A stretch of 33,780 nt of DNA from Candidatus Sulfopaludibacter sp. SbA3 (GTDB lineage: Bacteria; Acidobacteriota; Vicinamibacteria; Vicinamibacterales; UBA2999), in NCBI GenBank assembly GCA_945876205.1, contig CAMCNL010000009.1:1-33780 (forward strand), in the 5' to 3' direction. The notes beneath the pieces are model-generated. The model was not told where the DNA came from, did not search any database, and worked only from the letters and a program-made list of their open reading frames with translations. This document shows positions 1,804 to 33,577 of the stretch, piece by piece (position 1 is the first letter of the stretch; each line of letters opens with the position of its first letter). Both the position numbers and the translations under genes were made by a program.

Positions 1804-2552
1804 CAGCGATCCTTCAGGCGAACGACTTCACGCTGCCGGTCGTTCAATCCGGCCATGAATTCCGGGGTGAACGACAGGCCGAGCCTGCCCCAGTCGGGCA
1901 TGTAGCCCACGCTGTAGCAGAAGTAGATGGTGCGCCGCGGCCGGCCAGACACGTTCGGGACGCTGCCGTGCGTGAGCGCTTCCGTAAAAACAACCGCATC
2001 TCCAGGCTCGCCTGGTACAGGGATAAGCGATGGGTTCTCGTCCGGGTGGTCGCCGAAGGGCCGCCTGAAGTTCGCTTTGTGCGATCCGGGCACGACCGCG
2101 AAACAGCCGTCCTCGGTCTGGTTGTTCTGGATCGGAAACACCGCTTTCGTGGTCGTCGAAAACATCTGTGTGTTGTGGCACATGTACGTCGCCTTCGGAT
2201 GCAGCGGGGTGGCTCCCATATGCAGGTAGGTATATCCAGTGCCCCATCGGTAAATCGCGTAGGTGTGATTGAGGCGATACAAGTGCAGCGACACCTCGTC
2301 GATGATATCGAGCACTTCCGGAATGTCGACGAATGCGTTGAGCGCCGGGTCCGCCTCGACAATGTTCGAGACGTAGAGCTCAGCTGGTGTGCGGGGCTTT
2401 CCAAGAGTCACCCCATTGGGGTAACGCTCGGGCGCGAGCTGATCGATGACGTCGAGCACTTTGTTGCAGGCCGCGATCGTCTCAGGTGGCACGACGCCCT
2501 TGAGCACCAGGTAGCCATTCAGGTCGAAGAGATAGCGCTGCTTATCGTCCAT
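1803..2552 (-). CDS. Phytanoyl-CoA dioxygenase (PhyH) family Fe(II)/2-oxoglutarate oxygenase
   Basis: 249 residues. It has the PhyH layout: an N-terminal DLNGYLVLKGVVPPE segment (10-24), a double-stranded beta-helix core with CFAVVPGSHKANF (150-162) and GDAVVFTEALTHGSVPN (184-200), where H195 is the distal iron ligand and R206/R207 follow as candidate 2-oxoglutarate contacts. The usual proximal HxD is not evident. The sequence reads YLHMGATPLH (109-118), resembling a PhyH subgroup with an LHGG-type motif, so the proximal ligand assignment is uncertain. Probable role: hydroxylation or oxidation of a sugar nucleotide or glycan. A good GGGAGA ribosome site lies at 2562-2557, four bases before the ATG. 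A 27-base gap separates it from the epimerase gene ahead; its stop shares one base with the next start. Confidence 0.87.
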   Translation of the reverse strand: MDDKQRYLFDLNGYLVLKGVVPPETIAACNKVLDVIDQLAPERYPNGVTLGKPRTPAELYVSNIVEADPALNAFVDIPEVLDIIDEVSLHLYRLNHTYAIYRWGTGYTYLHMGATPLHPKATYMCHNTQMFSTTTKAVFPIQNNQTEDGCFAVVPGSHKANFRRPFGDHPDENPSLIPVPGEPGDAVVFTEALTHGSVPNVSGRPRRTIYFCYSVGYMPDWGRLGLSFTPEFMAGLNDRQREVVRLKDR

Positions 2553-17421: not shown

Positions 17422-18189
17422 TTAGTTCAGGTACCGCGCCGTCGTCGGGTCGTCGGTCATGAGCGTGCCGGCCGCTTCCAGCTCGGCTGGTGTATCGACG
17501 CTGATGGTGACGGCCTCGGTGGGCACCATCCGGACGCGGCCGCCTGTCTCGAGCACCCTGTTCATGTCGACCGATTCGATCTGCTCGAGACGCGTTTCGG
17601 GCATCGCGTTCACGCGACGCAGTACGTCGCGCCGGAACGCGATGATGCCAGTTTGCTGGAACATCGGCACCCCCGCGATTCCGCGCCAGGGCGACGGGAT
17701 CGGTTCTCGCGAGAAGTAGAGGGCGTCGTTGTTGTGATTGACGACCACCTTGACGTTGTTCCTGTCGGCGAACTCGTCGTAGCTCCGCAGGCGCGACATG
17801 ATGTTGACGATGTCAACCGCCGGGTCGGAGAAATGCTTCAGCGTCTCTCCGATCGTTTCGGGCCGAATCAACGGTTCGTCTCCCTGCACCATCACGACCA
17901 CGTCGACGCGCTCGCCCGTCGCCGCTTCGATATGGTCCATGGCCTCCGCCGTCCGCGTGGTTGCCCGGGTATGGCTGCGAGCCGTCATCACCGCCGACCC
18001 GCCGATGCTGCGCACATACTCCGCAATCTCTTCGTCGCACGTGGCGACGTAGGCGGCTGCAACCCCCGGGGCCAGGCGCGTCCGGTGATAGCAGTGCCCA
18101 ATCATCGGCATGCCGTTGATGCTCGCCATCGGTTTGCCCGGAAACCGCGATGCCGCCATGCGGGCGGGAATGATGGCGATGGCGGTCAT
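17422..18189 (-). CDS. KdsB-like cytidylyltransferase for a 2-keto-3-deoxy sugar acid
   Basis: 255 residues from ATG 18189. Nucleotidyltransferase (CTP_transf_3) with IIPARMAASRFPGKP (6-20), VQGDEPLIRPETI (101-113), YFSREPIP (158-165; KdsB has YFSRxxIP) and ISVDTPAEL (229-237; the KdsB VDTPEDL aspartate). It should join CMP to an ulosonic acid such as Kdo. It is not plain KdsB: the highly conserved HQSGTER motif reads HTRATTR (73-79) and several internal positions differ, so the sugar acid may differ. It is the only CMP-transferase in the window and could serve the product of the HpcH/HpaI aldolase, of the NeuB-type synthase, or both. Seven bases follow the phosphatase stop. Confidence 0.86.
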   Translation of the reverse strand: MTAIAIIPARMAASRFPGKPMASINGMPMIGHCYHRTRLAPGVAAAYVATCDEEIAEYVRSIGGSAVMTARSHTRATTRTAEAMDHIEAATGERVDVVVMVQGDEPLIRPETIGETLKHFSDPAVDIVNIMSRLRSYDEFADRNNVKVVVNHNNDALYFSREPIPSPWRGIAGVPMFQQTGIIAFRRDVLRRVNAMPETRLEQIESVDMNRVLETGGRVRMVPTEAVTISVDTPAELEAAGTLMTDDPTTARYLN

Positions 18190-18196
18190 CGGACGT

Positions 18197-18961
18197 TCAG
18201 ACAAAGTGGGGATCAGGCCAGGGACACGCGCCATTGTGGGCGTAGACGGTCAGCCCGTGAGCCACCGGCGACGGCGCAGACAGGAACGTCCCTCCGGCAG
18301 CCCGAACGAGTGCCAGCCCCGCGGCAATATCCCAGATTCGAATGTCACGTTCGAAATACGCATCCCCGCGGCCGGCCGCCACATAGGCGAGAGATAGCGC
18401 CGCGGAGCCGAGCAGGCGGATCTTCCGAAACGCGCTGACCTGAGTCACGAAGCGCGTCACCGTGGCCGGCGCGAAATCGGTCCCTGCCGGGAAGCCCGTG
18501 AACATGACGGCTCGGTCAGGTGGCACGGATCGGACGCGGAGAGGCGACCCGTTCAGCCAGGCGCCCGTGCCGACGATGGCCGAGAACATCTCATCGCGAT
18601 CGAAGTCGTACACAGCGCCGGCGACGGGTTGATCGTCGTTCCATAGCCCAACCGACACGCAGCAGAACGGGATGCCTTGAAGATAGTTCATCGTGCCATC
18701 CAGCGGATCGACGATCCAACGAAGTCCAACGGTGGACTGAGACGACGTGCCGACCGCGCGCTCCTCGGCAACGATGGGAATGGATGAACCGCCGGCGAGC
18801 ACGTCCACGATTCGATCTTCTGCGTCGCGGTCAGCCTGAAGCTTCACATCGCGCGCGGTCTCCGCCATGAGCACTGCATTCCGGCGCGAGCCGGCCGCCA
18901 GGAACTGCCCCGCCGCGCGGGCAGCGCATTCCGCCAACGCGAGCGACTCGCCGTCAGTCAC
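18197..18961 (-). CDS. Inositol monophosphatase family phosphatase
   Basis: 254 residues from GTG 18961, which overlaps the aldolase stop by eight bases. Metal-site motifs: VKLQADRDAE (39-48), EE (66-67), IVDPLDGTMNYLQG (83-96) and IWDIAAG (209-215), matching the Mg-dependent, lithium-sensitive phosphatase superfamily. Members hydrolyse inositol phosphate, PAP, or sugar/heptose phosphates. Because it stands between an aldolase and a CMP-transferase, removal of the phosphate from a 2-keto-3-deoxy sugar acid phosphate before activation is the natural reading (the KdsC step of Kdo synthesis), but that is inference from order, not sequence. Cytoplasmic; no signal peptide. Confidence 0.88.
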   Translation of the reverse strand: MTDGESLALAECAARAAGQFLAAGSRRNAVLMAETARDVKLQADRDAEDRIVDVLAGGSSIPIVAEERAVGTSSQSTVGLRWIVDPLDGTMNYLQGIPFCCVSVGLWNDDQPVAGAVYDFDRDEMFSAIVGTGAWLNGSPLRVRSVPPDRAVMFTGFPAGTDFAPATVTRFVTQVSAFRKIRLLGSAALSLAYVAAGRGDAYFERDIRIWDIAAGLALVRAAGGTFLSAPSPVAHGLTVYAHNGACPWPDPHFV

Positions 18962-19724
18962 GAAGGCTGCGCAGCTCTTTCGCTGCCTCGCGCGCCGCTG
19001 GTGTAAGGAACAACATGTCCCCGCCGTACGCGATCAGTCCAAAGCCTTCGGCCATGCGCTCCGCCACTTGCGTTCCCGGTGGGTGAACGACGTGAATCCC
19101 GGCGGCTTTTCCCGAGACCCGCGCCGCTTCGACGACGCGACGCATCGCCTCCCGGACGAGGGGATGACCGAGTTCACCCATCACGCCGTACGATGCGGAC
19201 AGGTCGTACGGCCCGATGAACACGCCGTCCACCCCAGGCACCGCCAGGATCTCCTCTACGTGCTCGACACCTTCCTTCTGTTCGATCATCGGGATGACGA
19301 CCGAGCCTTCGGCGCACGCTCGGAGGTAGTCGGCGAATCCTGGTCCATATCCATGCGCCCGCCCGAGTCCAACGCCTCGCGTGCCCTCAGGGGGGTATTT
19401 GACGGCGTCAACGGCCTGCCGCGCCTCGGCCGCTGACCGGACAGACGGCACGATCACTCCCCAGGCGCCCGCGTCCATGACGCGCTTGATCTGCACCGGG
19501 TCATTCGCCGACAGGCGAACGAGAGGCGCGCACCCTGCGAGATCGATGACCTGAATCAGCGTAAACGTCGTCTCGAGGTCGATGGTGCTGTGCTCGAGGT
19601 CGATGGCGAGCCAGTCGAAACCCGCCTTGGCCATGACCTCGGCGATGGCGGAGTTGCCGGATTGAAGCCACGAGCCGAAGACTGGCCGTCCCTCAAGCAG
19701 CGCCGCTCGAAGTGTATTGTTCAT
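18954..19724 (-). CDS. HpcH/HpaI aldolase (2-keto-3-deoxy-acid aldolase family)
   Basis: 256 residues from ATG 19724 (ATGA overlap). The residues align position for position with E. coli HpcH/HpaI: H45 in IDLEHS, R70 in APLVRLS, E148 in VIPMIEQKEG and D174 in IGPYDLSASYG, which are the catalytic histidine, the pyruvate-binding arginine and the two metal ligands. The family reversibly condenses pyruvate with an aldehyde to give 2-keto-3-deoxy acids. In an envelope glycan operon, followed by phosphatase and CMP-transferase genes, synthesis of an ulosonic acid from pyruvate and a sugar aldehyde is likely; a catabolic role is less so. Confidence 0.91.
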   Translation of the reverse strand: MNNTLRAALLEGRPVFGSWLQSGNSAIAEVMAKAGFDWLAIDLEHSTIDLETTFTLIQVIDLAGCAPLVRLSANDPVQIKRVMDAGAWGVIVPSVRSAAEARQAVDAVKYPPEGTRGVGLGRAHGYGPGFADYLRACAEGSVVIPMIEQKEGVEHVEEILAVPGVDGVFIGPYDLSASYGVMGELGHPLVREAMRRVVEAARVSGKAAGIHVVHPPGTQVAERMAEGFGLIAYGGDMLFLTPAAREAAKELRSLRD

Positions 19725-21634
19725 GCGTGTGCTCGGGCGTCCGCGGCAATCATGTGCTGGATGGCATCGGCAATGCCGGCGGAGGCTCCGGCCGGATTCG
19801 GACCGAAGCACTCGTGGAGCACCCGGCGCTGCGTCTCGAGGGTGGGCTGATAGCGCGCCGGATCCTGCATGAAGGCTTGAACCTCTCGCCGCAACGCGCC
19901 GACCGACGTAAACGACGGAATCACCGGAACGTCGAGGAACGGCGACGTATTGAAGCCGGGCCACTGCCACTGCCACGTCGGGATCCCGCGGAGCAAGGCC
20001 TCTTCCGCGAGGCCGGTCTGTGAGAAGAGCACGAGATCGGCGGCCTGAAAGTCTTCTTCAAGAGTGCTTGAGGTCACCGTGATCGACCCGCGAAAGCGGC
20101 GGAACGCCTGGCGCTGGCTGAAAAGGTAGAGCGGGTGATCCCGCCAGTGCAGGCGCACGGACTCCAAGCCTGTCGTCGCCGAGATCACGGCGTCGCACAA
20201 ATCGAGGTGAGCAGCCTCGCACATACCACCGGCCAGCAGCAACGTGACCGGACCGCCGGGCGCCCGCGCCGCGCGAGGCTCTATCCGGACGCCCTGATAT
20301 CGCAGCCCTCCCGTGAGCACGACGTGCTCGCGGGCGAAGCCGTTTTCCTCCCAGATCCGCCGTGAGAGGTCTCCCATCACGAAGATTCCGTCGGGCGCGG
20401 GAACCGCGCACCCGTCCGGCGTACCGCGCACCTCGATATCGGGATGGAAGACGCCAAGGGTCTTGTCGCTCGAATACCCCGCGTGCTGCGCGGCCCAGAC
20501 GTGCGCCCGCGGCGAGCACGCGCGCACACCAGCGTGCAGGGCCCTGGAGCGCATGAATAACTCAAAGGCCGTGAGGACAACATCGGGACGCAGGCGGCGG
20601 CACGCACGGGCTGTAGCCGCGGCGACGAGTTGCAGCCGGCAGACAGTCGCGCCCCATGCCGCTCGAAGCAGCTGCCGCCTGACCAGCGTATAGAGGTCAT
20701 AGCCGTCGACCCTGCATAGCTCTTTGAAGGCGCGACCATACACCACCCGCGTGACGTGCACCGGGTCGCGCAGGTCGGACACCGTGCGCGCCGCGTCGCC
20801 CGGAGTGACGTACCGTTCGAGGAGCGTGACGTCCGGATGCGCGCAGGATGCGGCGAGCACGTCACGTCTCTTGCGCCCACGCTGCCACGGTTCGAGATGC
20901 GGCTCGCACGACGCCAGCCACCCCGCGCTGAGACCGCGAGCAGCCAACCGCGAAGGCAGATCGGCGAAGTACCGATCCTGGATGCCGCCTTGAGGCGCAG
21001 GACGTATGGTCCAGTCCCAGTAGCCCTGGAGCAACACATCGCAGTGTTCCCCGACAGGCATTGGTAAACGCCGCAGCGTCCACCACGCTCCTACGAACTC
21101 GGCGAATAACCTCAACCGGCCAATGAGGCCGAAGACGAGCGCACGCGCGAGGTCGGCAAGCGCGCCGTGTTCCGGCGCTCGCTGGCCCATCGCTGCGGCA
21201 AACATCGGGGCAGCCCCGTGCAGAGTCACGCGGTCGACGCGATAGCGTTCTCGGAGCTCCTGAACAGCGATCAACTGCAGGAGTGTCAAGAAAATCGTGT
21301 CCTCATCCCAGAGACAATCCTTCTCTGTGATGTCGAGAAACCACCAGCGGCTGTACTCTCCCCGACCCTGGAGCGCCTGTCGGAGCGTTCGTCCGGCCAG
21401 ACAGGGTGTGGCGCCAATGCGCGCAATCAACCGCACGTACTCGGACCGGGCGCGTTGGCGCACGTCCTGGATGAGCGCGCGACCGCTGACGTACCGTGGT
21501 CCGCACCGTTCTTCCATCACCTCGTCGGCGCCGGGCGCCAGAAAACTCAGGACGACGACATCCCCGGACGGAGCCTCGACGGGAGGCTCGAAGCACACCC
21601 ACAGCTCCGAGCATGGGACAGGCACACCACTCAT
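19721..21634 (-). CDS. Large putative transferase, TIGR04326-like surface carbohydrate biosynthesis protein
   Basis: 637 residues from ATG 21634 (ATGA overlap with the methyltransferase). I recognise no catalytic motif with certainty. It resembles the TIGR04326 'surface carbohydrate biosynthesis protein' family in its length, the tryptophan-rich WWFLDITEKDCLWDED (97-112), TLHG (137-140), a middle region with VWAAQHAGYSSDKTLG, and a C-terminal FSQTGLAEEALLRGIPTWQW (537-556) that looks like the nucleotide-sugar side of a GT-B fold. No transmembrane helices. It is flanked by a methyltransferase and the ulosonic-acid cassette and shares this neighbourhood with the LIC12162-type protein. A glycosyltransferase using an activated sugar acid is my guess; family membership itself needs a profile search. 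Confidence 0.6.
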   Translation of the reverse strand: MSGVPVPCSELWVCFEPPVEAPSGDVVVLSFLAPGADEVMEERCGPRYVSGRALIQDVRQRARSEYVRLIARIGATPCLAGRTLRQALQGRGEYSRWWFLDITEKDCLWDEDTIFLTLLQLIAVQELRERYRVDRVTLHGAAPMFAAAMGQRAPEHGALADLARALVFGLIGRLRLFAEFVGAWWTLRRLPMPVGEHCDVLLQGYWDWTIRPAPQGGIQDRYFADLPSRLAARGLSAGWLASCEPHLEPWQRGRKRRDVLAASCAHPDVTLLERYVTPGDAARTVSDLRDPVHVTRVVYGRAFKELCRVDGYDLYTLVRRQLLRAAWGATVCRLQLVAAATARACRRLRPDVVLTAFELFMRSRALHAGVRACSPRAHVWAAQHAGYSSDKTLGVFHPDIEVRGTPDGCAVPAPDGIFVMGDLSRRIWEENGFAREHVVLTGGLRYQGVRIEPRAARAPGGPVTLLLAGGMCEAAHLDLCDAVISATTGLESVRLHWRDHPLYLFSQRQAFRRFRGSITVTSSTLEEDFQAADLVLFSQTGLAEEALLRGIPTWQWQWPGFNTSPFLDVPVIPSFTSVGALRREVQAFMQDPARYQPTLETQRRVLHECFGPNPAGASAGIADAIQHMIAADARAHA

Positions 21635-22599
21635 CGAGGGATCGGCGCATCCGGGCCGGCTTCGGCTATCAACTGCACGTGAGAGCTCAAACACGCCTGT
21701 TGCAGCAGCTCCTGAAACGCACGGCCGACCTGCTCATCCTCATGGCGAACAAGCTCATCGAGGATCGGCGGCAGACGCAGACCCGGGTCGCGCCGGCAGG
21801 CGTCAGCCACCGCCTGGACGTCCAGTTCGCCAGGGGTGCTGTACTCCACCAGCGTTGCACCCTCTCGCGCCAGGGCCGCGAGCCATCCCGCGCGCGATAG
21901 CAGCTGCAGGTGAACGGGTGGAACGAGCGCAGCGGTGCGCGGACCGAGCATCCGCACATCGAACCCCCCGCCCGACATCGTCGTCACGAAGAGGAGTCCG
22001 CGCGGGTGGAGCGCACGACGGCAGCGATGGAGCGCACGCGAGAAGTCGGCCGCGCGCTCGAGCACATCGAAGGCGATCACGCCATCTACCCGCGCATCCG
22101 CGCCATCAGCAGTGACGTCGGCGGGCCACTGCACGACGGATGCAGAGGCTCTCAGGAGGTCGAGAAGCGGCGGCGTTTCTGCGCCGAACTGCGCGAGAGT
22201 CGGACTCCGGCCCAGGCGAGACGCCGCTGCCGACAAGACCCAGCGCGCCCGCGGCCCCAGGGCATGCCGAGCGCGAACATCCGCCGTCATCGGCAGGAGC
22301 TGCTCGCGCCTGAATCGTTCGGCGGCCCCCTCGGCGTGGTACCGCGCAAGGCGTTCTTCCCGCGGCACAGGTGAGACGAAGAGTGATCCACACGCCGTGC
22401 AGCGCTGGTACGAGAACCCGAAGCGCATGAATTCCGGCGCCCCGTGTCCGCTGCAGGCCGGGCAGGGTCGCTCGAGGCCGCCGAGCATGAGGTCGAACCG
22501 GAGGATGTCGGCCTGTGCATGCGCCAGATAGGCGTCCAGCAGCTCGGCGGGACGCATGGCGCGCTGGGTCAGGTCCCCGCTCGTCACCACGCGCTTCAT
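21631..22599 (-). CDS. Methyltransferase-like protein with N-terminal zinc ribbon and degenerate SAM motif
   Basis: 322 residues from ATG 22599, chosen over ATG 22614 because a perfect GGAGGG ribosome site sits 7 bases upstream. An N-terminal four-cysteine zinc site (C46, C49 in CPACSG; C67, C70 in CTACGS) precedes a SAM-fold region ending in AFDVLERAADFSRALHRCRRALHPRGLLFVTTMS (176-209), which is the conserved post-III area of this methyltransferase type. The glycine-rich SAM motif I is not recognisable: the matching place reads AQFGAETPPLLDLL (136-149), without a GxGxG. It may bind SAM weakly, use another ligand, or be inactive. It overlaps both neighbouring genes by four bases, so it is under operon selection. 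Confidence 0.75.
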   Translation of the reverse strand: MKRVVTSGDLTQRAMRPAELLDAYLAHAQADILRFDLMLGGLERPCPACSGHGAPEFMRFGFSYQRCTACGSLFVSPVPREERLARYHAEGAAERFRREQLLPMTADVRARHALGPRARWVLSAAASRLGRSPTLAQFGAETPPLLDLLRASASVVQWPADVTADGADARVDGVIAFDVLERAADFSRALHRCRRALHPRGLLFVTTMSGGGFDVRMLGPRTAALVPPVHLQLLSRAGWLAALAREGATLVEYSTPGELDVQAVADACRRDPGLRLPPILDELVRHEDEQVGRAFQELLQQACLSSHVQLIAEAGPDAPIPR

Positions 22600-23620: not shown

Positions 23621-25408
23621 TCAAGACACAATCGCGGGCTGGGCGGGCGCCATCAGCAGCGCCTCTTTCAGGACGCGCAGCGGATGCTCCGGCATACGCG
23701 CATACTGCTCGCAGAAGGTGCGCCGAGCCTCCTGCACCGACGGCTGATTCCACCACGCCGCCACGTCGTTCCAGATTGCCGTCACGTGCTGCGCGGCGGA
23801 CTCGGGCGTCTCATGATAAATGCCCACGTGTTGAAGCAAATCGAAGTAGGGCTGGGCATCCGCTCGCAGCTCAAATGAATCCGGATTCCAGAACATCACG
23901 GTGGGGATGTTCCGTGCCAGTGTCTCGAGAAACCCGGTCGAGTTGTAGGTGTAGACGAACACGCGGCATTGGCCCAAGCGGCGCTCGATCGGTTCGGTGC
24001 TGGGATCGATCTCCACGCCGGGCCACGCCTTCTTCCATCTGGCGACGTATGCCGTGCGAAGCTTCTCGTCCAGCGCCTGATAAATGCGTACCGTGAGCAA
24101 GGCGCGAATCGGCTCGTCCAGGGCTTCGGCGAATCGCAGTTGCTCCGCCACGAACGCGGCAGACTGGTTCGCACCGACGGGCCAACTCATACTCCTGAAC
24201 GTGAACAACCGTATGGACACGGTCACCAGGAGGAGATTGCCAGACGGATTCCACGTCCCGACCGGTTTGCTGACATTGGTGAGAATGACCGCGGGTTGAA
24301 TCTGAGGCCGCGCATCCCGCCATCCCCAGGACAGGTAGCGATCAGAGATCTCCACCTGGTGGTCCTCGCCGGCGACCCGTTTGCCGATGCCGATGAGTCC
24401 TCCGTGCTGACCGATCACCAACGGGTAGCCCGCCTCGGTCTTCTCCGCGGCCCACTCCTGAAACACATCGCAGTACATGAAGAGATTCGACGTGAAGATC
24501 ACTTTCGGTTTGGAGGGCCAGGGAAGGCGTCCGGCTGCCCGCTTGAGATTCTGATAGCCCTCGACGTAGACCGTGGGGATCTGTTCAGGAATCATCGAGG
24601 CGGCGAATCGAACGAAGGCGTCGGTGCTGTCGCTGAGGACCGTGAGGCGCCGGCGTCGCGACAGGTCTGCCGGCTCGGCCTCCACCGCTGGCCGCGTCCA
24701 CCGCTTGGGCACCTGTCCCAGTGCCAACTGAAGCTTCATCTCGTCGCGAATCGAGAGGTAGCTGTGAATGATCAGCGCCTCGTCGCTCCTGGTGAACCGA
24801 GCGAGCAGCGAGGAAGTGAAATCGCGGACGGCCGTCCGCGCGGCTCGCCGAACGCTCTGGCGCAGGCGCGGCGCCGGCGTCGGCGTACTCTCTACGGGCG
24901 CAGGTATACGCCGCCACGGGATCCTGTTCTGGTGCTCGATCGCTCTCCCGAACAAGTAGTGGTTCGACGCGATGTCGTGGTACGCGCCACCCCGCAATTC
25001 CGCCGGGATGGTACTGCCGGGAGGAAAGTCGTAGATGAGCGTCTCATCGATGTCGTAGGCGTCTGCCGCCTTCTCTACCATCGTCCACCGGTCAAAGAGC
25101 ACGTGCAGGAAGACATATAGCCACGGCCCCACCAATATCCGCCAGTAGCGCGTGGACTTGTCGGTGTCGTGATGCTCGTTGAGGGCTGTGCCCGTTCTGC
25201 GCAACAGGTCTTCGTAGACAGCGTGGAGATACAGGCAATCGTCGTCGTAGCGTTGCCGATCGTCCCAGTGAAAGGGAACGACCTCGGCGTCAAGATGTTC
25301 CCACGCCGCGCGCCGGTCATACAGGCGGCACCATTCGCCAAGGAACAGCAGCGGACGATCCTGGCGCCACGTACCTTCGTCTGCAGTAGTAATCAGGAAT
25401 CGCTTCAC
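23621..25408 (-). CDS. LIC12162-family (TIGR04331-type) putative surface-glycan transferase
   Basis: 595 residues from GTG 25408. The N-terminus is strongly characteristic of the LIC12162 family: FLITTADEGTW (4-14), LLFLGEWCRLYDR (20-32), LNEHHDTDKSTRYWRILVGPWL (76-97), and the middle GQHGG (333-337). A second Rossmann-like half has YTYNSTGFLETLARNIPTVMFW (486-507), the donor-site layout of GT-B glycosyltransferases. The family is named for a Leptospira protein, is common in loci with nonulosonic acid genes, and its chemistry is, to my knowledge, not established; transfer of an activated sugar acid is a reasonable guess. No transmembrane segments. It begins 20 bases after the methyltransferase stop and ends 5 bases before the oxidoreductase GTG. 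Confidence 0.83.
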   Translation of the reverse strand: MKRFLITTADEGTWRQDRPLLFLGEWCRLYDRRAAWEHLDAEVVPFHWDDRQRYDDDCLYLHAVYEDLLRRTGTALNEHHDTDKSTRYWRILVGPWLYVFLHVLFDRWTMVEKAADAYDIDETLIYDFPPGSTIPAELRGGAYHDIASNHYLFGRAIEHQNRIPWRRIPAPVESTPTPAPRLRQSVRRAARTAVRDFTSSLLARFTRSDEALIIHSYLSIRDEMKLQLALGQVPKRWTRPAVEAEPADLSRRRRLTVLSDSTDAFVRFAASMIPEQIPTVYVEGYQNLKRAAGRLPWPSKPKVIFTSNLFMYCDVFQEWAAEKTEAGYPLVIGQHGGLIGIGKRVAGEDHQVEISDRYLSWGWRDARPQIQPAVILTNVSKPVGTWNPSGNLLLVTVSIRLFTFRSMSWPVGANQSAAFVAEQLRFAEALDEPIRALLTVRIYQALDEKLRTAYVARWKKAWPGVEIDPSTEPIERRLGQCRVFVYTYNSTGFLETLARNIPTVMFWNPDSFELRADAQPYFDLLQHVGIYHETPESAAQHVTAIWNDVAAWWNQPSVQEARRTFCEQYARMPEHPLRVLKEALLMAPAQPAIVS

Positions 25409-25428: not shown

Positions 25429-26355
25429 CTACGCTGAAGGATTCTTTCTCGAAAGAGCACGATAGCGGAACCGTCTAACTGCGCCCACCATTCGTCTCGT
25501 CACGGCTCGGTAGATACGAACCGACAGGATTGGAGATGGGGGGAAATGCTCGACAGGCGACGCGAGGAGACTCGACGCCACGCGATCAACATGGCTGACG
25601 CTGAACGAGACTGATTTCGGCTGACTACGCTGCGCCACAACACCCAGCTGGTCATACGTGCGATTCGAGCCGGGTGCGCATTCGGTCATGGCTAGAATTC
25701 TGAAACCAGCTTTCTCCAGCATTTGCCGCAGCGTGTGCGAGGTATAGAGGACTGCGTGACCCTGACAGATCTGTGTTGCGTGAATGTTGCCCAGATTCGG
25801 CGTGTCGATCTGAAGAAGGCCGTCGGGCTTCAGAGCCTTCCAGACTTCGAATAGCCAGGGCAGCGGATCGGGAATGTGCTCGAACACGTGATATGCAATG
25901 ACCAAATCCAGAGTGCCAGGCCCGACGGCGTCGGCCGTAAACCAATCGGGCCGAATCTCAACCCCATACGTCTCTTTGGCGAATGCATGGAATCGTTGAT
26001 CTGGGTCATAGCCAACCGCCTGCCACCCCATCTCTGTCAGCACTTTCACGGCCGACCCGTCTTTCGTGCCGATGTCGACGGCGCGCCCTCTGGGAACCGA
26101 TGCGTACTGTGCCAACCAGTTGAGACGAACGCGATTGGTAGGCAGCTTCCAGCGTGTATAGCGGTCGAACGATTCCCATGAGAGCGGAGGATCAGGTCGT
26201 GGACGCGGCTCATGATGAAACACCAGGCCGCAACGCTGGCACTGGACGTAAGGGGGAGCGTTGACGACGCAGGACGCGACACTGAGTCGGAGCCTCCTGG
26301 CCACATCGGAGCACAGCGGACATGCTTCCGGGCTCACGTATTCTGCGCCATTCAT
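25429..26355 (-). CDS. Class I SAM-dependent methyltransferase with N-terminal zinc ribbon
   Basis: 308 residues from ATG 26355. Zinc-type cysteines C12, C15 (CPLCSD) and C39, C42 (CQRCGLVF) precede a SAM fold: AVDIGTKDGSAVKVL (92-106), VGYDPDQ (114-120), LDLVIAYHVFEHIPDPLPWLFEVWKALKPDG (149-179) and QIDTPNLGN (182-190). The motif I reads VDIGTKDGSA, with threonine-lysine where GxG is usual but the final glycine kept. This arrangement is common in sugar methyltransferases of the Methyltransf_23 type. By eye its base composition is less G+C-rich than the genes on either side. It stands after a 101-base gap, so it may belong to a unit with the radical SAM enzyme. Confidence 0.85.
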   Translation of the reverse strand: MNGAEYVSPEACPLCSDVARRLRLSVASCVVNAPPYVQCQRCGLVFHHEPRPRPDPPLSWESFDRYTRWKLPTNRVRLNWLAQYASVPRGRAVDIGTKDGSAVKVLTEMGWQAVGYDPDQRFHAFAKETYGVEIRPDWFTADAVGPGTLDLVIAYHVFEHIPDPLPWLFEVWKALKPDGLLQIDTPNLGNIHATQICQGHAVLYTSHTLRQMLEKAGFRILAMTECAPGSNRTYDQLGVVAQRSQPKSVSFSVSHVDRVASSLLASPVEHFPPSPILSVRIYRAVTRRMVGAVRRFRYRALSRKNPSA

Positions 26356-26456: not shown

Positions 26457-28268
26457 TCAGCCGGCCGGCTGCAGAGGGATCACCTTCCGGCCGGCGTGCG
26501 GGTCTGGCAACGCCCGGTCGGAGATTTCAGTGATAGGCACGGCGACGTCACTCGCGGCCGGAGGGGCTTTGGCCGCGGCGTAGAGCGCGTCGGTAACAAT
26601 CTGTAACTGGCTCTCGCTCAGCGCCAGCGAGTACGCTTCGCCGAGGATACTGGGTACATCGAGCTCGCCATTCAGGTAGTCGACGCGATCCGCGGCGGCG
26701 AGCAGGCTCTCCAGCGACGTCGTCGCGATTTCTTCCTTCGAGAGGTAGGACACGACGAACCGGTGCAGTATCCGCCGCAGGCTCAGGCCCACTTTGCTTG
26801 GGGATTCAGCCAGCTCGACCATCGGCCAGAGCGCCTCGGGCACGTGCAGATAGATATTGAACGTGCCCTGAAGGCCTTCCAGCTCGTCGGGACTCATCTT
26901 CGAGAGGCGCAGTTCCTTCGCCATCGACACCGGCAGTATCTTGCCGTCGGCGCCACGAACCGGAATCTTGTGCTCGATCTGAATCGGCGTGCCCGGATAG
27001 GGGAACAGAATATAGATGTTGCACGCCGAGGTTCCGATGCGGCGATTCAGCTTGATGGTCTCGAACACGTTGTCGCGCGTCTCGTCGGGAAAGCCGATGA
27101 TGTTGAATGTCGAGAGGCGGATCCCATTCTTCTGGACGATCTTGAGGCGCTCGACCAGTTGGTCGTCCTTGTAATTGCGCCTGACACGGCGGCGGATAGC
27201 CTCGTTGCCACTTTCCACCCCCACACTCATCGCCACGCACCCCATGTCTCGCGCCAGCTTGACCTTCTCCTCTGTGATCGTATTCGGCATGACCGAACAG
27301 CCGAACTTGATCCCGAGCTTCTTCAATCCGTCGCCAAGTTCTTCCAACCGGTCCACCCTCGGAAACAGAAATGAGTCGTCCGCGAACTTGATCCACGAGA
27401 CGCCAAACTTCTCCTTCAGCTCGGTCAGGTGACTGATCGTGACCGATACCTTCTGCTGCCTGAAGTAACCCGCGCTGCCGCCGGTCATGTCCGACACCGT
27501 CGGGTCGACACAATACGTGCACTTCATCGGGCAGCCTCGTGACTGCACGTAGAAGGAGCCCTGGTAGATCTCGCCTTCGAACGGACGGTGCAGGTGACGA
27601 CGGTCGAACAGTCCCCAATCGGGGCACGGTAGTTCGTCATTGTCTACACGGGGTGCCGGAGGGGTGTGCCTGATGGCGCCATTCGGCATCTTGAATGCCA
27701 TCCCCGCCACGTTGGTGTAGTCCTTGCCGGCGTCCATGAGGTCGCACAGTTCCACCATGACGTGATCGGCCTCGCCGATACAGGCGATGTCGATTTCCCT
27801 CTGCGCCAGGCAGTCGTCAACCGCGATGGTGGGATGAATGCCGCCGACAATCACCTTGCAGTCGTACTTGACCATTCGCAGGAGGTCCAGGCAGAAGTCG
27901 AACGTCGAGGTCATCGTCGAAATGGCAATCAGATCCGGCTTGAAGGAATCGATCGCTCTCTGGAATTCCTCTCGATACGAAACGACCGGGTCATCCATCA
28001 CGAGGTCGGCAATCGTATAGGCAGTGAGCTTCATCGAACTGATGCCAGATCGGTCGGCCTCTTTCTCGCCCAGGCCGCCGTGTGTCTTCTGGTGGAGCGC
28101 CTTTGCGTCGAAGGTGCGGGCATTGAAGTCGGGATCGGTCTTCATGAACGTCGTATCCACGAGCGCCGTCTTGTGGCCATGGCGTTTCAGGTTGGCCGAC
28201 AGCATCGAGATCCCGCCTGGAATCCCAATATTGAGGTAGTGCTCCGGATAGAGGAAAAGTACGTTCAT
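26457..28268 (-). CDS. Radical SAM enzyme with N-terminal B12-binding-type domain
   Basis: 603 residues. The N-terminal 200 residues have the cobalamin-binding Rossmann pattern of BchE-type enzymes: MNVLFLYPEHYLNIGIPGGIS (1-21), PDLIAISTMTSTF (111-123), VIVGGIHPTIAVDDCL (139-154) and DIACIGEAD (160-168). The DxHxxG lower-axial motif is not obvious, which is common in this group. The radical SAM core carries C246-x3-C250-x2-C253 (SRGCPMKCTYC). SVGVESGNEAIRR (348-360) and IIGFPDETRDN (390-400) are the usual GGE-like and later strands. Such enzymes perform C-methylation or radical rearrangement of unactivated carbons. The C-terminal 120 residues are unassigned. A clear GGAGA ribosome site is about 8 bases before the ATG. 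It is separated from neighbours by 85 and 101 bases. Confidence 0.9.
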   Translation of the reverse strand: MNVLFLYPEHYLNIGIPGGISMLSANLKRHGHKTALVDTTFMKTDPDFNARTFDAKALHQKTHGGLGEKEADRSGISSMKLTAYTIADLVMDDPVVSYREEFQRAIDSFKPDLIAISTMTSTFDFCLDLLRMVKYDCKVIVGGIHPTIAVDDCLAQREIDIACIGEADHVMVELCDLMDAGKDYTNVAGMAFKMPNGAIRHTPPAPRVDNDELPCPDWGLFDRRHLHRPFEGEIYQGSFYVQSRGCPMKCTYCVDPTVSDMTGGSAGYFRQQKVSVTISHLTELKEKFGVSWIKFADDSFLFPRVDRLEELGDGLKKLGIKFGCSVMPNTITEEKVKLARDMGCVAMSVGVESGNEAIRRRVRRNYKDDQLVERLKIVQKNGIRLSTFNIIGFPDETRDNVFETIKLNRRIGTSACNIYILFPYPGTPIQIEHKIPVRGADGKILPVSMAKELRLSKMSPDELEGLQGTFNIYLHVPEALWPMVELAESPSKVGLSLRRILHRFVVSYLSKEEIATTSLESLLAAADRVDYLNGELDVPSILGEAYSLALSESQLQIVTDALYAAAKAPPAASDVAVPITEISDRALPDPHAGRKVIPLQPAG

Positions 28269-28353: not shown

Positions 28354-29394
28354 TCAAGGTCTTCCACCGAGCATTCCGAGGTCAATGCCGGAGCCCCGTG
28401 GAATCGCCTTCGAGGCCAGTAGACCTAGCACTGAATCGTAATAGGCCGGCTCGAGGCCGGTGGTTCCTGGAGACGGACGAAGAATTCCCGAGTTCTCCAG
28501 CGTGAAGAGCTCTCCGGCGGCGATATCGCGCACCGCGACGATACACCTCCTGAACAACTTCGCGTTCTCGCCTTCGGCAGGCGCCGGACGCTTCGCGGAG
28601 TCGCCGAGCATCGCTTCGGCGGACCGGATAGCCGAGAGGAACTCTCTGAATTCACCGGGCTCTGCGGCAAAATGGTGCTCCGGGCCAGGCCGAGCGCGGT
28701 CCAGGGTGATGTGCTTCTCGATGATCTTTGCTCCGCGCGCGATGGCTGCGACGCTGGCCACGACGCCACGGGAGTGATCGGAGAACCCGACCACGGCGCC
28801 TGTGGCGGCCGCCAGCGTGTTAATGGCGCGCAAATTCAACGAGTCCGGCGGCGCCGGATAGAGGCTGGTGCACTGCAGGACGCCGAGTTCCTCTTGGCCG
28901 TGCTGGCGGCACCACTCGACGGCCCGCACCACGGCATCCAGGTAGCTCATCCCCGTTGACAGGACGATCGGCACTCCGAGCGAGCATGCGATCTTGAGAT
29001 GATGCACATCGGTCAGCATGCCCGACGAGATCTTCACGAGCGGCATCTCCAGCTGTTTGACCAGCTTCAACGATGCCGTATCGGGCGTTGCGAAAAACGC
29101 CAGGCCAAGGCCCCTGGCATACGCGCCCAGCCGCGCGTAATTATCGAGCCCGAGATCCATGCGCTGGTAGATCGCGTACGAGGGATGCTCAGGGGAATAG
29201 TTGCGGTCGGGATTGAGAATCTGCAGCTTTACGGCATCGGCACGCGCTTCGGCAGCGGCGGCAATCAGTTCACGAGCCGTCTCGACGCTGCCGTCATGAT
29301 TCACGCCGATTTCGGCGATCACAAAAGCAGGTGCGTCTCCGCCGATCTGCCGGCCGGGTCCAAGCGTGAATTTCGATGAGCCTGGAGCGTTCAT
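28354..29394 (-). CDS. neuB: N-acetylneuraminate/nonulosonic acid synthase (NeuB/SpsE family)
   Basis: 346 residues, the usual length. The TIM-barrel domain has FVIAEIGVNHDG (24-35), DAVKLQI (53-59), VKISSGMLTDV (120-130), STGM (146-149), FSDHSRG (204-210) and IIEKHITLDR...PGPEHHFA (224-242), all family signatures. A SAF/antifreeze-like domain with RRCIVAVRDIAAGELFTLENSGILRP (282-307) ends the protein. It condenses phosphoenolpyruvate with a 6-carbon amino sugar to form a 9-carbon 2-keto-3-deoxy acid such as Neu5Ac, legionaminic or pseudaminic acid. Which one is unclear: no NeuC, PseG/LegG or clear NeuA is in the window. ATG overlaps the PhyH-Rieske stop by four bases. Confidence 0.91.
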   Translation of the reverse strand: MNAPGSSKFTLGPGRQIGGDAPAFVIAEIGVNHDGSVETARELIAAAAEARADAVKLQILNPDRNYSPEHPSYAIYQRMDLGLDNYARLGAYARGLGLAFFATPDTASLKLVKQLEMPLVKISSGMLTDVHHLKIACSLGVPIVLSTGMSYLDAVVRAVEWCRQHGQEELGVLQCTSLYPAPPDSLNLRAINTLAAATGAVVGFSDHSRGVVASVAAIARGAKIIEKHITLDRARPGPEHHFAAEPGEFREFLSAIRSAEAMLGDSAKRPAPAEGENAKLFRRCIVAVRDIAAGELFTLENSGILRPSPGTTGLEPAYYDSVLGLLASKAIPRGSGIDLGMLGGRP

Positions 29395-30581
29395 GCGAGT
29401 TTGACGAACACGCGATCCCCTTCGACACGGGTCTGATGGCGGCGGACCGCGAAGGACGGATCATCGGTACACGCCCCGGTCTCGAGATCGAAAGACAAGC
29501 AATGCCCCGGACACGTGACCCTGCCGTCACGCTGCGGCCCGTTCGCGAGACGGTAGTAGAGATGGGGGCAGACATTGTCCAGTGCGATGATGTCCGAGCC
29601 TCGGCGGAAGAGCGCTATTTCTTTCTCACCGATCCGGATGCTGAAGCCCTGACCTCCAGCGATCTCGCTCTGCGCGCATGCATCGGTCCAGTCGTGATAG
29701 GACGCCGCACGAACCGGCCTCGGCAGGCGCGTGTGGTGCGACCCCTCGGAGTCCGTGGGCGGCGCGGCCACCGTTTCGTGACTCTCGATGAAATCGGGTT
29801 CCGGGCGATCGAGCTCGCTCGCACGTAGCCACTGGTCGCGATTGGTGCTGGCAAACTGCGGCCAGTACCGGGGCGTGTCGAGCGCGATTCGGCCGGAGAC
29901 AGCGACCCGCGTCACGTCGGTCGTATTCAACCGTGTCCCGTGAAGCTCGTCCGCTCCGAAAAGCACGCAGTCTCCCGGCCGCATGTCGAAGGTCTGCGGC
30001 ACAACTGGAAGATTCGCCTCATGCGTAGCATAGAACGGCGTCGTGCTCAGGTGAGGCAACTCGATGTCCTCGAATCCGGGAAACACGGTGATGCCTGCGG
30101 CGGCCGGAACCTCGTCGATCGCCATCCACACATTGAGCAGATTCACGGAATCGCCCGCCCAGGAGTCACGATGGGGCGCGTGGCTGCCGAACTTGTACTT
30201 CAGCGCGTCGACGTCACGGCGTCGTACGTGGTACCCAGGCCGGTCCCGGTAGGTGCTGAATGGCGGCACGATCCGGAGAAATACCTCTCGCAGCAGATAG
30301 AATCCGCCGTCCATCCCCATTTCATCCTTGGCGACGGTCGCCATCATCCGCCACATGTCGGATTCGCAGGGACGACTGGTGTAGAACGCCTCGGTGATCC
30401 GCGCGATGTCGTCTAGCGGTACGTGACGATGCAGGTAGCGCAGGCCCTCTACCCGCACCGCTGCGGCCACGGCCGCCCCGGAGATTCGTTCGATGCACGA
30501 CAGCGCGTGATCCTGCAACGTTCGAAGCATGTCTTCGCGCTGTGGGGTGTGCCTCGCAAGTACAGCGGCAGAGTGCGGCAT
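29391..30581 (-). CDS. Fusion: PhyH Fe(II)/2-oxoglutarate dioxygenase + C-terminal Rieske [2Fe-2S] domain
   Basis: 396 residues in one frame. Residues about 40-260 are a phytanoyl-CoA dioxygenase-type fold: APHRDSW (135-141) supplies H137 and D139, VNLLNVWMAIDEVPAAAGITVFPGFE (146-171) is the usual core, and DELHGTRLN (211-219) supplies the distal H214, with R225 as probable 2-oxoglutarate ligand. Residues about 295-396 are a Rieske domain with both cluster motifs, C338-P-H340 and C357-P-G-H360, 16 residues between them, inside the standard VCPH...LANG...CPGHCLSFDLETG pattern. This differs from classical Rieske oxygenases, whose cluster is N-terminal and whose iron centre is not a PhyH fold. 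ATG directly follows the LeuA-like TAG with no spacer. Confidence 0.9.
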   Translation of the reverse strand: MPHSAAVLARHTPQREDMLRTLQDHALSCIERISGAAVAAAVRVEGLRYLHRHVPLDDIARITEAFYTSRPCESDMWRMMATVAKDEMGMDGGFYLLREVFLRIVPPFSTYRDRPGYHVRRRDVDALKYKFGSHAPHRDSWAGDSVNLLNVWMAIDEVPAAAGITVFPGFEDIELPHLSTTPFYATHEANLPVVPQTFDMRPGDCVLFGADELHGTRLNTTDVTRVAVSGRIALDTPRYWPQFASTNRDQWLRASELDRPEPDFIESHETVAAPPTDSEGSHHTRLPRPVRAASYHDWTDACAQSEIAGGQGFSIRIGEKEIALFRRGSDIIALDNVCPHLYYRLANGPQRDGRVTCPGHCLSFDLETGACTDDPSFAVRRHQTRVEGDRVFVKLA

Positions 30582-31748
30582 CTAGGCGCCCTGCCGCTCG
30601 CTGATGACGGACTCCGCGATCTGGTGAATCTCGTCGTTGGTGGCGCCCCGGCTTTCACGCAACCCTGCCTTCACCCGCCGCAGGACCTCCGCAACCTCGG
30701 ACTCCGACAGACGAAGCCCCAGTTCCACCAATCTGCTCTGCAACCCGTGTCGGCCGGAATGCCGGCCGATCACCATTCCACCGGAGACCGCGCCGACCGC
30801 CTCGGGACGGATGATCTCGTATGTCACCGGTGACTGCAGCACGCCGTGCTGGTGAATTCCCGACTCGTGGGCGAACGCATTGGCGCCCACCACGGCTTTG
30901 TTCGGTGGCACGGGAAACCCGGTGATCCGGGACACGAGCTGACTGGTCGCAAGGAGTTCGCGCGTGTTGACGTTGAGCCGGTACGGCAGGAGATCGGCGC
31001 GACAGGCGATCGCCATCACGACCTCCTCGAGACAGGCATTGCCCGCCCGCTCCCCGATGCCGTTAATCGTGCACTGGACCTCGCGCGCCCCAGCCTCGAT
31101 GGCGGCCAGCGAATTTGCCACCGCGAGGCCAAGATCATCGTGGCAATGGATCGCCAGCGTGACTCTGTCCATCCCATCGACGTGCTCGTAGAGATGGTGG
31201 ATGCGCCTCTTCAACTCGTCAGGCGTCGTGTACCCCACCGTGTCCGCGATCGTGACAGTGCGAGCTCCGCACCGGATGGCCGTTTCAAATGCGCGGCACA
31301 TGAAGTCGTAATCGGTCCTGGTGCAGTCCTCGGCCGACCACTGCACATCGTCGCACGCGTTCCGGGCCTGCCGCACGGCGGCCTCCGTAGCCTCGAGAAC
31401 CTTCTCTGGGGTGCTGCGAAGCTTGTGCTCGATGTGGATGGTGCTGGTGGCAATAAAGACGTGAATGCGCGGCGCGCGTGCCTCCTTCACCGCCGCGGCG
31501 GCCGCGTCGATGTCGTCGGGGCGGGCGCGTGCCAACGCCGCCACGCGGCAGTCCTTCACCAGCCGCGAGATCTGGCAGACCATTTCAAGATCCGCCGGCG
31601 ACGATGCGGGAAAGCCAGCCTCGATGACATCGACGCCAAGGCGCTCCAACTGCGCCGCCACGGCGAGCTTTCCCTCGACGTCCATGGAAGCACCCGGCGC
31701 CTGTTCCCCGTCGCGCAGGGTTGTATCGAAAATCCTGACGTTGTCCAT
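30582..31748 (-). CDS. LeuA-type (2-isopropylmalate synthase-like) Claisen condensing enzyme without the regulatory domain
   Basis: 388 residues from ATG 31748, supported by GGGAGA 7 bases upstream (31761-31756). DRE-TIM metallolyase motifs: [14 protein letters not shown] (7-20), [11 protein letters not shown] (41-51), [10 protein letters not shown] (137-146), [13 protein letters not shown] (201-213), NGIGERAGN (229-237), and [19 protein letters not shown] (287-305). These fit 2-isopropylmalate synthase better than homocitrate synthase. Standard LeuA is longer (about 510 residues) and ends in a leucine-sensing dimer domain; this one stops after the first subdomain, so it should be leucine-insensitive. 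Making a branched acid for sugar acylation, or a sugar-acid precursor, is inference. A 4-base stem could hide the ribosome site (31768-31757). Confidence 0.87.
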
Positions 31749-31755
31749 CAATTGA

Positions 31756-31768
31756 TCTCCCGGGGGAG
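31756..31768 (-). promoter_or_regulatory. Ribosome-binding site of the LeuA-like gene overlapped by a small stem
   Basis: Minus-strand RNA has CUCC at 31768-31765 and GGAG at 31760-31757 with a four-base loop. The GGAG half is most of the ribosome site (GGGAGA, 31761-31756) seven bases before ATG 31748. The stem is short, so any masking of translation is speculative. Confidence 0.25.
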
Positions 31769-31791
31769 TCGGCACGCGGGATGTTTGAATG

Positions 31792-32889
31792 TCATCGAAT
31801 GAAGGGCAGCGACACGCGTCGTCCAGCCGTCACAGGATCGACGGCCACCATGTGGTTGAAGGGAATGCACCGGGTGCCTTCGATCAGCCCACAGGGCGTC
31901 AACGCCAACCCAAGAAGAGAGCGGACCAGCTGAAGCGGCAGGCTGAGCCCCGCATCCACTGTCGCACTGACGGATCCGCTGAACCGGCAACTAACGTCCA
32001 GGACGGTCAGTCCACCCGTCAGCCGCGACGCAATGTCCATGTCGCCGCAGTGCGCGAAACCGACAACCTCCGCCGTTCGGCTCGCCAGTGCGATCACATC
32101 CTCGCGAAAGCACAGCTGATGACCGATGCTGACGGTCGCCATCCCCTGACGCGGGTGGCGCATCCGCGGAACGGCGATCGCCACGCTCCCGTCGTGGACC
32201 AGGACGTCGACGTCGAAGAAGGGATTGTCGACGTACTCCATCAGGATGAAGTTCGTGAAGAATTCCTTCGCGTCGACTCCCTCGATCAGGCTCGAGGCGT
32301 TGGCTCGTCCATAGAGGCGCACCGGATCATGAATTTCGAGGGTCGGGCATGACGCGTCGATGACGAAGGTCTTCCGTGACCCGGCACCCACACTCGGTTT
32401 CAGCACAACGCGCTTGTCCGGATACCCGAGCGCGCGAAGGCCTTCCTCAAAATTGCTGGCCGTGTCGATGAAGACGAAGTCGGCCATGTCAACGCCCGCG
32501 GCCCGCAGACATTGATACAACGCGCGCTTGTCATTGCACAGGTTCACCGGCGCCGGATCCGTCACCGAGGTGCGGACACCCAACTGCTGCAGCCGGCCTG
32601 CCATCGAGGCGATGGCCAACGCCTCGCCGTCAGACCCCGGGATCACCACCTGTACGGCTTCGCGCTGGCAGATGTCCACCAGCCGATCGGCGAAGTCCGC
32701 GAACGAACGTCCGGTTGGCGGCACCTGATAGAACGCGTCGAGAATTGCCGCAGCGGGCGCATCATCGCGCAGGTCGGTGCCCACCACGCGAACGTCGAGA
32801 TCCGGATCGCTTCGCAGACCGCATACGTAGTCGTAGGTGAACGCGCCGCCAGCGCTGGTGAGGAGCACCGTAACAGGCATCTTGGGCAT
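31792..32889 (-). CDS. ATP-grasp enzyme (carboxylate-amine ligase / carbamoyl-phosphate-synthase-like)
   Basis: 365 residues from ATG 32889 (a second ATG lies three codons later). Pre-ATP-grasp domain MPVTVLLTSAGGAFTYDYVCGL (4-25), VVIPGSDGEALAIASMAGRL (81-100), an ATP-binding loop VVLKPSVGAGSRKTFVI (161-177), EYVDNPFFDVDVLVHDG (about 213-229) and VLDVSCRFSGSVSA near the end. The family ligates a carboxylate to an amine or thiol with ATP; CarB-like members in capsule and nonulosonic loci are often uncharacterised. Expected role: N-acylation or aminoacylation of a sugar, acting with the neighbouring deacetylase and formyltransferase. It follows the PIG-L gene by 10 bases and precedes the LeuA-like gene by 43. 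Confidence 0.84.
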   Translation of the reverse strand: MPKMPVTVLLTSAGGAFTYDYVCGLRSDPDLDVRVVGTDLRDDAPAAAILDAFYQVPPTGRSFADFADRLVDICQREAVQVVIPGSDGEALAIASMAGRLQQLGVRTSVTDPAPVNLCNDKRALYQCLRAAGVDMADFVFIDTASNFEEGLRALGYPDKRVVLKPSVGAGSRKTFVIDASCPTLEIHDPVRLYGRANASSLIEGVDAKEFFTNFILMEYVDNPFFDVDVLVHDGSVAIAVPRMRHPRQGMATVSIGHQLCFREDVIALASRTAEVVGFAHCGDMDIASRLTGGLTVLDVSCRFSGSVSATVDAGLSLPLQLVRSLLGLALTPCGLIEGTRCIPFNHMVAVDPVTAGRRVSLPFIR

Positions 32890-32899
32890 GTTTACGAAG

Positions 32900-33577
32900 T
32901 CACTTGATCAAGCGCCCAAGCTCGAAGGCCTCGGCCGCCGGGAGGCCGACGCTGGCGCCTCGCCAACGCGCGAGGTGTTCGACTGCTGAATGCGAACGGG
33001 GATGCGGAAAGTCACGGAGCTCGGCCGCGTACGCCGCCATCGCCTCGAGCTTCACCGACAGCGTGGCTGAGATGTCGGTGAACCAATTGGGTGCGAAGGG
33101 CGGCAGCGAACCCGGAGGACGCCATTCCGTGCTCGAAGGTGTCTCAAAGAACAGCAGGGTTCGAACGCCATGTCCGGGCTGCGGCCGGCACGCAGCAATG
33201 ACGGCGTGATGCGTGCGCGAGTGATCGATGTTCACGTCACCGGAATGGTGGGTGTACACCACCGCAGGCTGGCAGCGCTCGATGACCCGCTCGATATCCT
33301 GGATGACATCGAGCAGCGCTACTGAATCCATCCGGTTGTCAGGGTAGGCGAGGAGCGTCAGGTCCTCCACACCGAGTCTTTCGTTGGCCAGGCGTGCCGC
33401 GCGCTGCCGCTCCGCGAGGGCCGTCCCTGCCGACGCCCCACGACTGCTGATCCCATCGGCCATGATCAACACCGTCACGCGGTCCCCTGCACTCCGGTGA
33501 CGGGCAATCGTGCCTCCGCAGCCCAATACCTCATCATCCGGATGCGCTGCGACGATCAGCACTGAGTTATCACTCAT
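32900..33577 (-). CDS. PIG-L / LmbE family N-deacetylase
   Basis: 225 residues. Zinc-site motif AHPDDE (11-16; H12, D14, D15), GCGGT (19-23), and the C-terminal histidine region VYTHHSGDVNIDHSRTH (107-123), where H119 is the third zinc ligand. The family removes acetyl groups from N-acetylglucosamine-type substrates. Next to an apparent sugar N-formyltransferase, the simplest scheme is deacetylation of an acetamido sugar followed by N-formylation of the free amine. Cytoplasmic. The ATG overlaps the formyltransferase stop by four bases. Confidence 0.9.
   Translation of the reverse strand: MSDNSVLIVAAHPDDEVLGCGGTIARHRSAGDRVTVLIMADGISSRGASAGTALAERQRAARLANERLGVEDLTLLAYPDNRMDSVALLDVIQDIERVIERCQPAVVYTHHSGDVNIDHSRTHHAVIAACRPQPGHGVRTLLFFETPSSTEWRPPGSLPPFAPNWFTDISATLSVKLEAMAAYAAELRDFPHPRSHSAVEHLARWRGASVGLPAAEAFELGRLIK

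Follow-up and report, generated by a model that had tools for sequence, protein, structure and literature searches.

A PhyH-type oxygenase carrying a C-terminal Rieske ferredoxin domain, encoded in a glycan gene cluster of Candidatus Sulfopaludibacter sp. SbA3

The genome of Candidatus Sulfopaludibacter sp. SbA3 contains a gene in which an N-terminal domain of the PhyH type and a C-terminal Rieske [2Fe-2S] domain of the ferredoxin type are joined in one open frame, with the ligands of both metal centers complete; a second protein of this domain order is encoded in a genome of another family of the same order. The gene lies on the minus strand of contig CAMCNL010000009.1, in the stretch of 33,780 nucleotides analyzed here (hereafter, the window), within a cluster of glycan genes (Table 1). 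Judging from the sequence, the product may be a 2-oxoglutarate (2OG)/Fe(II) oxygenase of glycan-precursor tailoring, whose built-in ferredoxin would keep or restore active-site Fe(II). This is the interpretation we favor, at slightly under an even chance.

The description of the gene in the earlier note on this DNA, as one frame at 29391-30581 (-), is borne out. Both domains exceed the Pfam gathering thresholds: PF05721 (PhyH) at residues 131-226 with 32.0 bits (gathering 22), although only profile positions 104-212 of 213 are covered, and PF00355 (Rieske) at residues 298-377 with 58.0 bits (gathering 20.3). Rieske_2 was matched as well (residues 297-394, 51.8 bits, gathering 27). Codon usage prefers the fusion frame over the other two frames from residue 1 to residue 396, the 55-residue linker included. 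Possible in-frame start codons (ATG, GTG, TTG or CTG) between residues 225 and 345 are limited to GTG 271, CTG 286 and CTG 334, and a Rieske protein with a start of its own is therefore not evident. The location between a LeuA-type synthase and NeuB also holds, in an operon-like setting: the ATG of the fusion gene directly follows the stop codon of the former gene, and its own stop codon overlaps the start of the latter as ATGA. The source genome is a draft (4.06 Mb, 391 contigs), which would leave room for an assembly or frameshift artefact; however, the coding frame is single throughout, the junctions with the genes on both sides are tight, and the second fusion, whose domains are arranged alike in a genome from a different family of the order, excludes chance or misassembly. 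An artefact is thus extremely improbable.

Table 1. Features of the fusion gene and of neighboring genes (positions are those of the window).
Feature	Position	Strand	Evidence or remark
Whole PhyH-Rieske fusion gene, 396 aa	29391..30581	-	One open frame, PF05721 then PF00355
PhyH (PF05721) core match, residues 131-226	29904..30191	-	32.0 bits and subfamily alignment
HxD iron ligands H137-R-D139 (HRDSW motif)	30165..30173	-	H, D, S and W invariant in aligned relatives
Distal iron ligand H214 to 2OG-type Arg R225 (H+11)	29907..29942	-	Subfamily alignment, SnoN profile match
Linker, residues 242-296	29694..29858	-	Coding composition in frame
Rieske [2Fe-2S] domain PF00355, residues 298-377; ferredoxin-type match to 395	29451..29690	-	
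Rieske ligands C338-x-H340-x16-C357-x2-H360	29502..29570	-	
KdsB-like CMP-ulosonate cytidylyltransferase, same cluster	17422..18234	-	
LIC12162-family transferase (TIGR04331)	23621..25408	-	450.9 bits, cut-off 225
Class I SAM methyltransferase	25429..26355	-	
B12-binding radical SAM protein	26457..28268	-	
NeuB/SAF nonulosonic-acid-synthase-like protein	28354..29394	-	
2-Isopropylmalate-synthase-like protein (HMGL-like and HCS_D2)	30582..31775	-	
ATP-grasp ligase-like protein	31792..32889	-	
PIG-L type de-N-acetylase	32900..33577	-	

The ligand sets reported earlier were found complete, both the 2-His-1-Asp facial triad of the N-terminal domain (H137, D139 and H214) and the CxH-x16-CxxH ligands of the Rieske domain (C338, H340, C357 and H360). 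The earlier note had missed R225, an arginine of the 2OG type at H214+11, the position where oxygenases of the PhyH kind hold 2OG. The presence of R225 and its invariance in the aligned relatives make it likely that use of 2OG by this domain is retained. With the arginine kept, nothing positive was found for the earlier suggestion of an iron chemistry that does not rely on 2OG alone. The subfamily profile matched one solved structure, SnoN (5ep9), aligned across the triad and the H+11 arginine. The fusion is placed as a variant within the PhyH-type Fe(II)/2OG oxygenases, of which SnoN is the nearest solved: it has the HxD...H triad, the H+11 arginine and a PF05721 score above cut-off in common with them, but adds the C-terminal Rieske ferredoxin domain, and its residues 1-130, an N-terminal region common to the Streptomyces relatives, are outside the Pfam match. 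The sporadic carbohydrate cluster 2OG-Fe(II) oxygenases (TIGR04324) resemble it in PhyH type and carbohydrate-cluster setting; membership was rejected, as residues 137-232 match the model weakly (23.1 bits against a cut-off of 150) and its 248 positions include no Rieske part. The AF2 model of the fusion, built on a thin alignment, has a mean pLDDT of 45, with most of the core below 50, and was discarded as too poor for measuring how far the cluster lies from the iron.

The C-terminal domain (residues 296-395) aligns with residues 3-103 of the 104 residues of the stand-alone ferredoxin 5bok (1.5e-11) and, near full length, with the naphthalene dioxygenase ferredoxin 2qpz. Since the match spans nearly the whole ferredoxin, beyond the cluster motif, the domain is, by sequence, a module for carrying electrons and not the Rieske portion found in classical oxygenases. 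The ligand motif and the full-length match are shared with Rieske-type ferredoxins and NirD-like proteins; in contrast to stand-alone ferredoxins, this copy is linked to an oxygenase of another fold, and among NCBIfam models it is near NirD and the AndAb/HcaC ferredoxins, under all equivalog cut-offs. Classical Rieske oxygenases, too, combine both kinds of center in a single chain, a Rieske cluster being coupled to a mononuclear 2-His-1-carboxylate iron. In the fusion, however, the order is the opposite, as the earlier note had pointed out (PhyH N-terminal, Rieske C-terminal), and the catalytic domain is PhyH, no Rieske-oxygenase catalytic family being present in the protein (Pfam). That classical coupling, together with the complete ferredoxin-type domain kept on the same chain in two distant fusions, would agree with a Rieske domain supplying the catalytic electrons, so that O2 is activated at the PhyH iron by two external electrons and 2OG is used poorly or not at all. 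Nevertheless, an enzyme abandoning 2OG need not keep the H+11 arginine, and no precedent was found in the open-access literature; we regard such a mechanism as unlikely. A similarly small probability is assigned to a self-contained hybrid, in which the cluster would feed the PhyH-type 2-His-1-Asp iron and the enzyme would run on 2OG plus external electrons, or on electrons alone, in surface-glycan tailoring. If true, this would be a mechanism between those of 2OG oxygenases and Rieske oxygenases, used in the tailoring of bacterial surface glycans.

The PF00355 profile identified three Rieske domains in the source genome: the fusion, a true Rieske oxygenase with LigXa_C (L167), and an FAD oxidoreductase (DAO) with a C-terminal Rieske domain (L169:504-2042 (-), contig C311). 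The latter resembles the fusion in that a Rieske domain is appended C-terminally to a redox enzyme; its catalytic domain is of the flavin type and unrelated. A ferredoxin reductase of the PF14759 type, a Rieske partner, had no match in the source genome, while three control genomes gave matches. Two viral contigs (L052:2045-2647 and L053:2045-2647) encode a 200-aa protein with Rieske-like ligands (CPHRG...CPGHGL) at the C-terminus, 54% identical to the window fusion over 35 residues.

The second fusion was found by profile search among 162 genomes of the order, at G508:C256 (family f8, the source genome belonging to f1). It occupies a 451-aa frame, whose true start is possibly later, with PhyH at 35.2 bits and a C-terminal Rieske domain at 43.5 bits, and is 29% identical to the window protein over 411 aa (E = 3e-38). 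HRDSW, the distal histidine, the H+11 arginine and CPH-x16-CPWH are retained. In the tree, the PhyH domains of the two proteins are sisters (support 0.93), adjoining an actinobacterial clade without Rieske domains, whereas the Rieske domains share just 25% identity and form no group, at low support. Hence the two proteins may go back to a single old fusion, the Rieske part of which changed fast, or to two independent fusion events. As all ligands of both centers are kept despite this divergence, the cluster appears to be under selection jointly with the oxygenase, and the same conservation argues that the cluster works with it. The proposal of the earlier note that the oxygenase may receive electrons directly is plausible.

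Relatives of the PhyH part from Streptomyces and Embleya have no Rieske domain, nor was a Rieske motif found in their inspected flanks; therefore, this PhyH type can exist without one. The loss or gain of the domain among relatives, the strong divergence of the Rieske sequences between the two fusions and the failure to find a dedicated reductase in the source genome would suit a gating function, in which the Rieske domain controls the oxygenase as a sensor of redox state or oxygen, or as a structural module, without donating electrons to it. The best-matching known families, on the other hand, are electron-transfer ferredoxins, and we consider a gating function improbable.

The fusion is rare. 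It was seen in two genomes among 193 of the class, namely those of the window and G508; their proteins were the only strong matches in the class, the next ones being weak, and those weaker matches whose loci were inspected had no Rieske ligands. Across 99 genomes (the source genome and relatives), the full protein matched, besides itself, only Rieske parts, from query residue 245 on. The PhyH part alone matched only itself in 396 genomes of the phylum, and the PhyH domain of the second fusion matched in the same number of genomes only the window protein and one marginal 83-residue stretch. Within the phylum, the subfamily profile gave weak matches in 26 other genomes, in open frames of 167-343 aa with one exception of 909 aa, matched in its N-terminal region only. 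PF05721 itself has matches in at least 95 of 297 genomes. Longer-frame PF05721 proteins of the phylum were considered as further fusions and rejected, as 13 stretches inspected among the matches listed contained no Rieske ligands; at L009, an open frame of 466 aa that ends in a Rieske domain was judged to be an ordinary ferredoxin behind a non-coding-looking frame. Scans of viral contigs with the PhyH part found no relatives, and plasmid and phage searches yielded Rieske-part or PhyH-part matches only, with no fusion.

A motif-pattern scan of genome contigs recovered four Streptomyces relatives, all without Rieske domains. Its two patterns came from an alignment in which the window protein and the Embleya relative were supplemented by two synthetic rows meant solely to guide the patterns, and would miss the second fusion (PPHRDSWV, NLINIW); the scan is therefore unusable for counting fusions in named genomes. 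No description of a PhyH-Rieske or 2OG-oxygenase-Rieske fusion was found in the open-access literature, and so within that literature the architecture did not turn up as already characterized with a known substrate. Earlier sightings of it, uncharacterized, in subscription journals or domain-architecture databases are quite possible.

The cluster in the window is encoded on the minus strand and includes genes for a PIG-L deacetylase, an ATP-grasp protein, the LeuA-like synthase, the fusion, the NeuB-like protein and the B12 radical SAM protein. These are followed by the methyltransferase, the LIC12162-family transferase, a Gfo/Idh/MocA protein, a weak match to the LIC13510 family, an HpaI-type aldolase and an inositol-phosphatase-like protein. 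Also present are the KdsB-like cytidylyltransferase, a D-2-hydroxyacid dehydrogenase, glycosyltransferases, sugar dehydratases, an rmlC-like gene and a second PhyH gene. This second PhyH protein (1803-2552 (-)) is an ordinary one, encoded beside a CmcI-type O-methyltransferase and 18% identical to the PhyH part of the fusion. Two proteins of the cluster, at 19721-21694 (-) and 23621-25408 (-), belong to Leptospira-type surface carbohydrate families (TIGR04326, weak, and TIGR04331, strong) and have no Pfam family. The LeuA-like synthase (397 aa) has no LeuA regulatory domain that could be found; as paralogues are encoded elsewhere in the source genome (one 51% identical, of 417 aa, and more distant ones), it may be dedicated to the glycan cluster. 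Its product may be a 2-alkylmalate acyl group, supplied to the adjoining ATP-grasp ligase.

Around the second fusion there are genes for glycosyltransferases, a Wzx-type flippase, a polysaccharide pyruvyl transferase, methyltransferases, including one of the CmoA type, and a polysaccharide deacetylase; NeuB and LeuA are absent among the genes scanned. The CmoA-type protein (L175:11842-12612 (-); TIGR00740, carboxy-SAM synthase CmoA, 225 bits, cut-off 193) is encoded next to the second fusion. With another methyltransferase as its neighbor, its presence in a glycan cluster points to carboxymethylation of a precursor of the glycan. In Streptomyces, the Rieske-less relative examined is flanked by a methyltransferase gene and a glycosyltransferase-like gene. 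A nonulosonic acid or its precursor, proposed earlier as the substrate from the neighboring genes, is thus not supported in general, since the second fusion is found in a glycan cluster without NeuB or LeuA. Only the broader role of tailoring a surface glycan or its precursor, the common denominator of both fusions, is supported. Nonulosonic-acid clusters with NeuB and radical SAM genes were also observed on plasmids of Azospirillum thermophilum (L152, 100000-142000), where PhyH genes are present too, and A. lipoferum (L153). Their gene inventory resembles that of the window; as a pathway model they were set aside, the gene kinds being similar but the PhyH proteins not being close relatives.

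The neighborhood bears on the function of the Rieske domain as well. B12 radical SAM proteins need external electrons, and one is encoded two genes downstream of the fusion; as the C-terminal domain resembles a free ferredoxin, it might serve as the electron carrier of this or another enzyme of the cluster, the fusion only ensuring joint production. However, no radical SAM gene was detected among those scanned in 20 kb around the second fusion, and the partner common to both proteins is PhyH, so this function is given a low probability.

In the favored interpretation, restoration of active-site Fe(II), the N-terminal domain would be an Fe(II)/2OG oxygenase of a divergent PhyH subfamily, with the epimerase SnoN as the nearest solved relative, and probably hydroxylates, epimerises or desaturates a sugar or an acyl or ulosonic precursor from the surrounding surface-glycan cluster. 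Single electrons would most likely be accepted by the Rieske ferredoxin domain from a general cellular reductase and handed to a mononuclear iron, either the one in its own chain or that of a partner chain. They would return Fe(III) from uncoupled turnover to Fe(II), as a built-in stand-in for the ascorbate used in the test tube. In 2OG oxygenases, the iron ends up as Fe(III) after uncoupled turnover, and it is proposed that Fe(II) is regained with the help of a reductant, for example ascorbate (PMC11878239). The Rieske-less Streptomyces and Embleya relatives and the lack of a PF14759 reductase match in the source genome speak against a reactivating role.

Nature activates O2 at a 2-His-1-carboxylate iron in two separate ways, with 2OG as the electron source in the 2OG oxygenases and the Rieske cluster in the Rieske oxygenases; iron enzymes of the PhyH class normally need no electron donor. 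With both machineries joined in one natural chain, it can be tested directly whether a Rieske cluster is able to reactivate an iron site of the 2OG type, or to drive it. A 2025 perspective on Rieske oxygenases states that naturally self-sufficient systems have yet to be identified and that activity and coupling are attenuated in the fused systems constructed to date (PMC12445004). A natural fusion of a ferredoxin with an oxygenase, even of another oxygenase type, is a design template for such systems.
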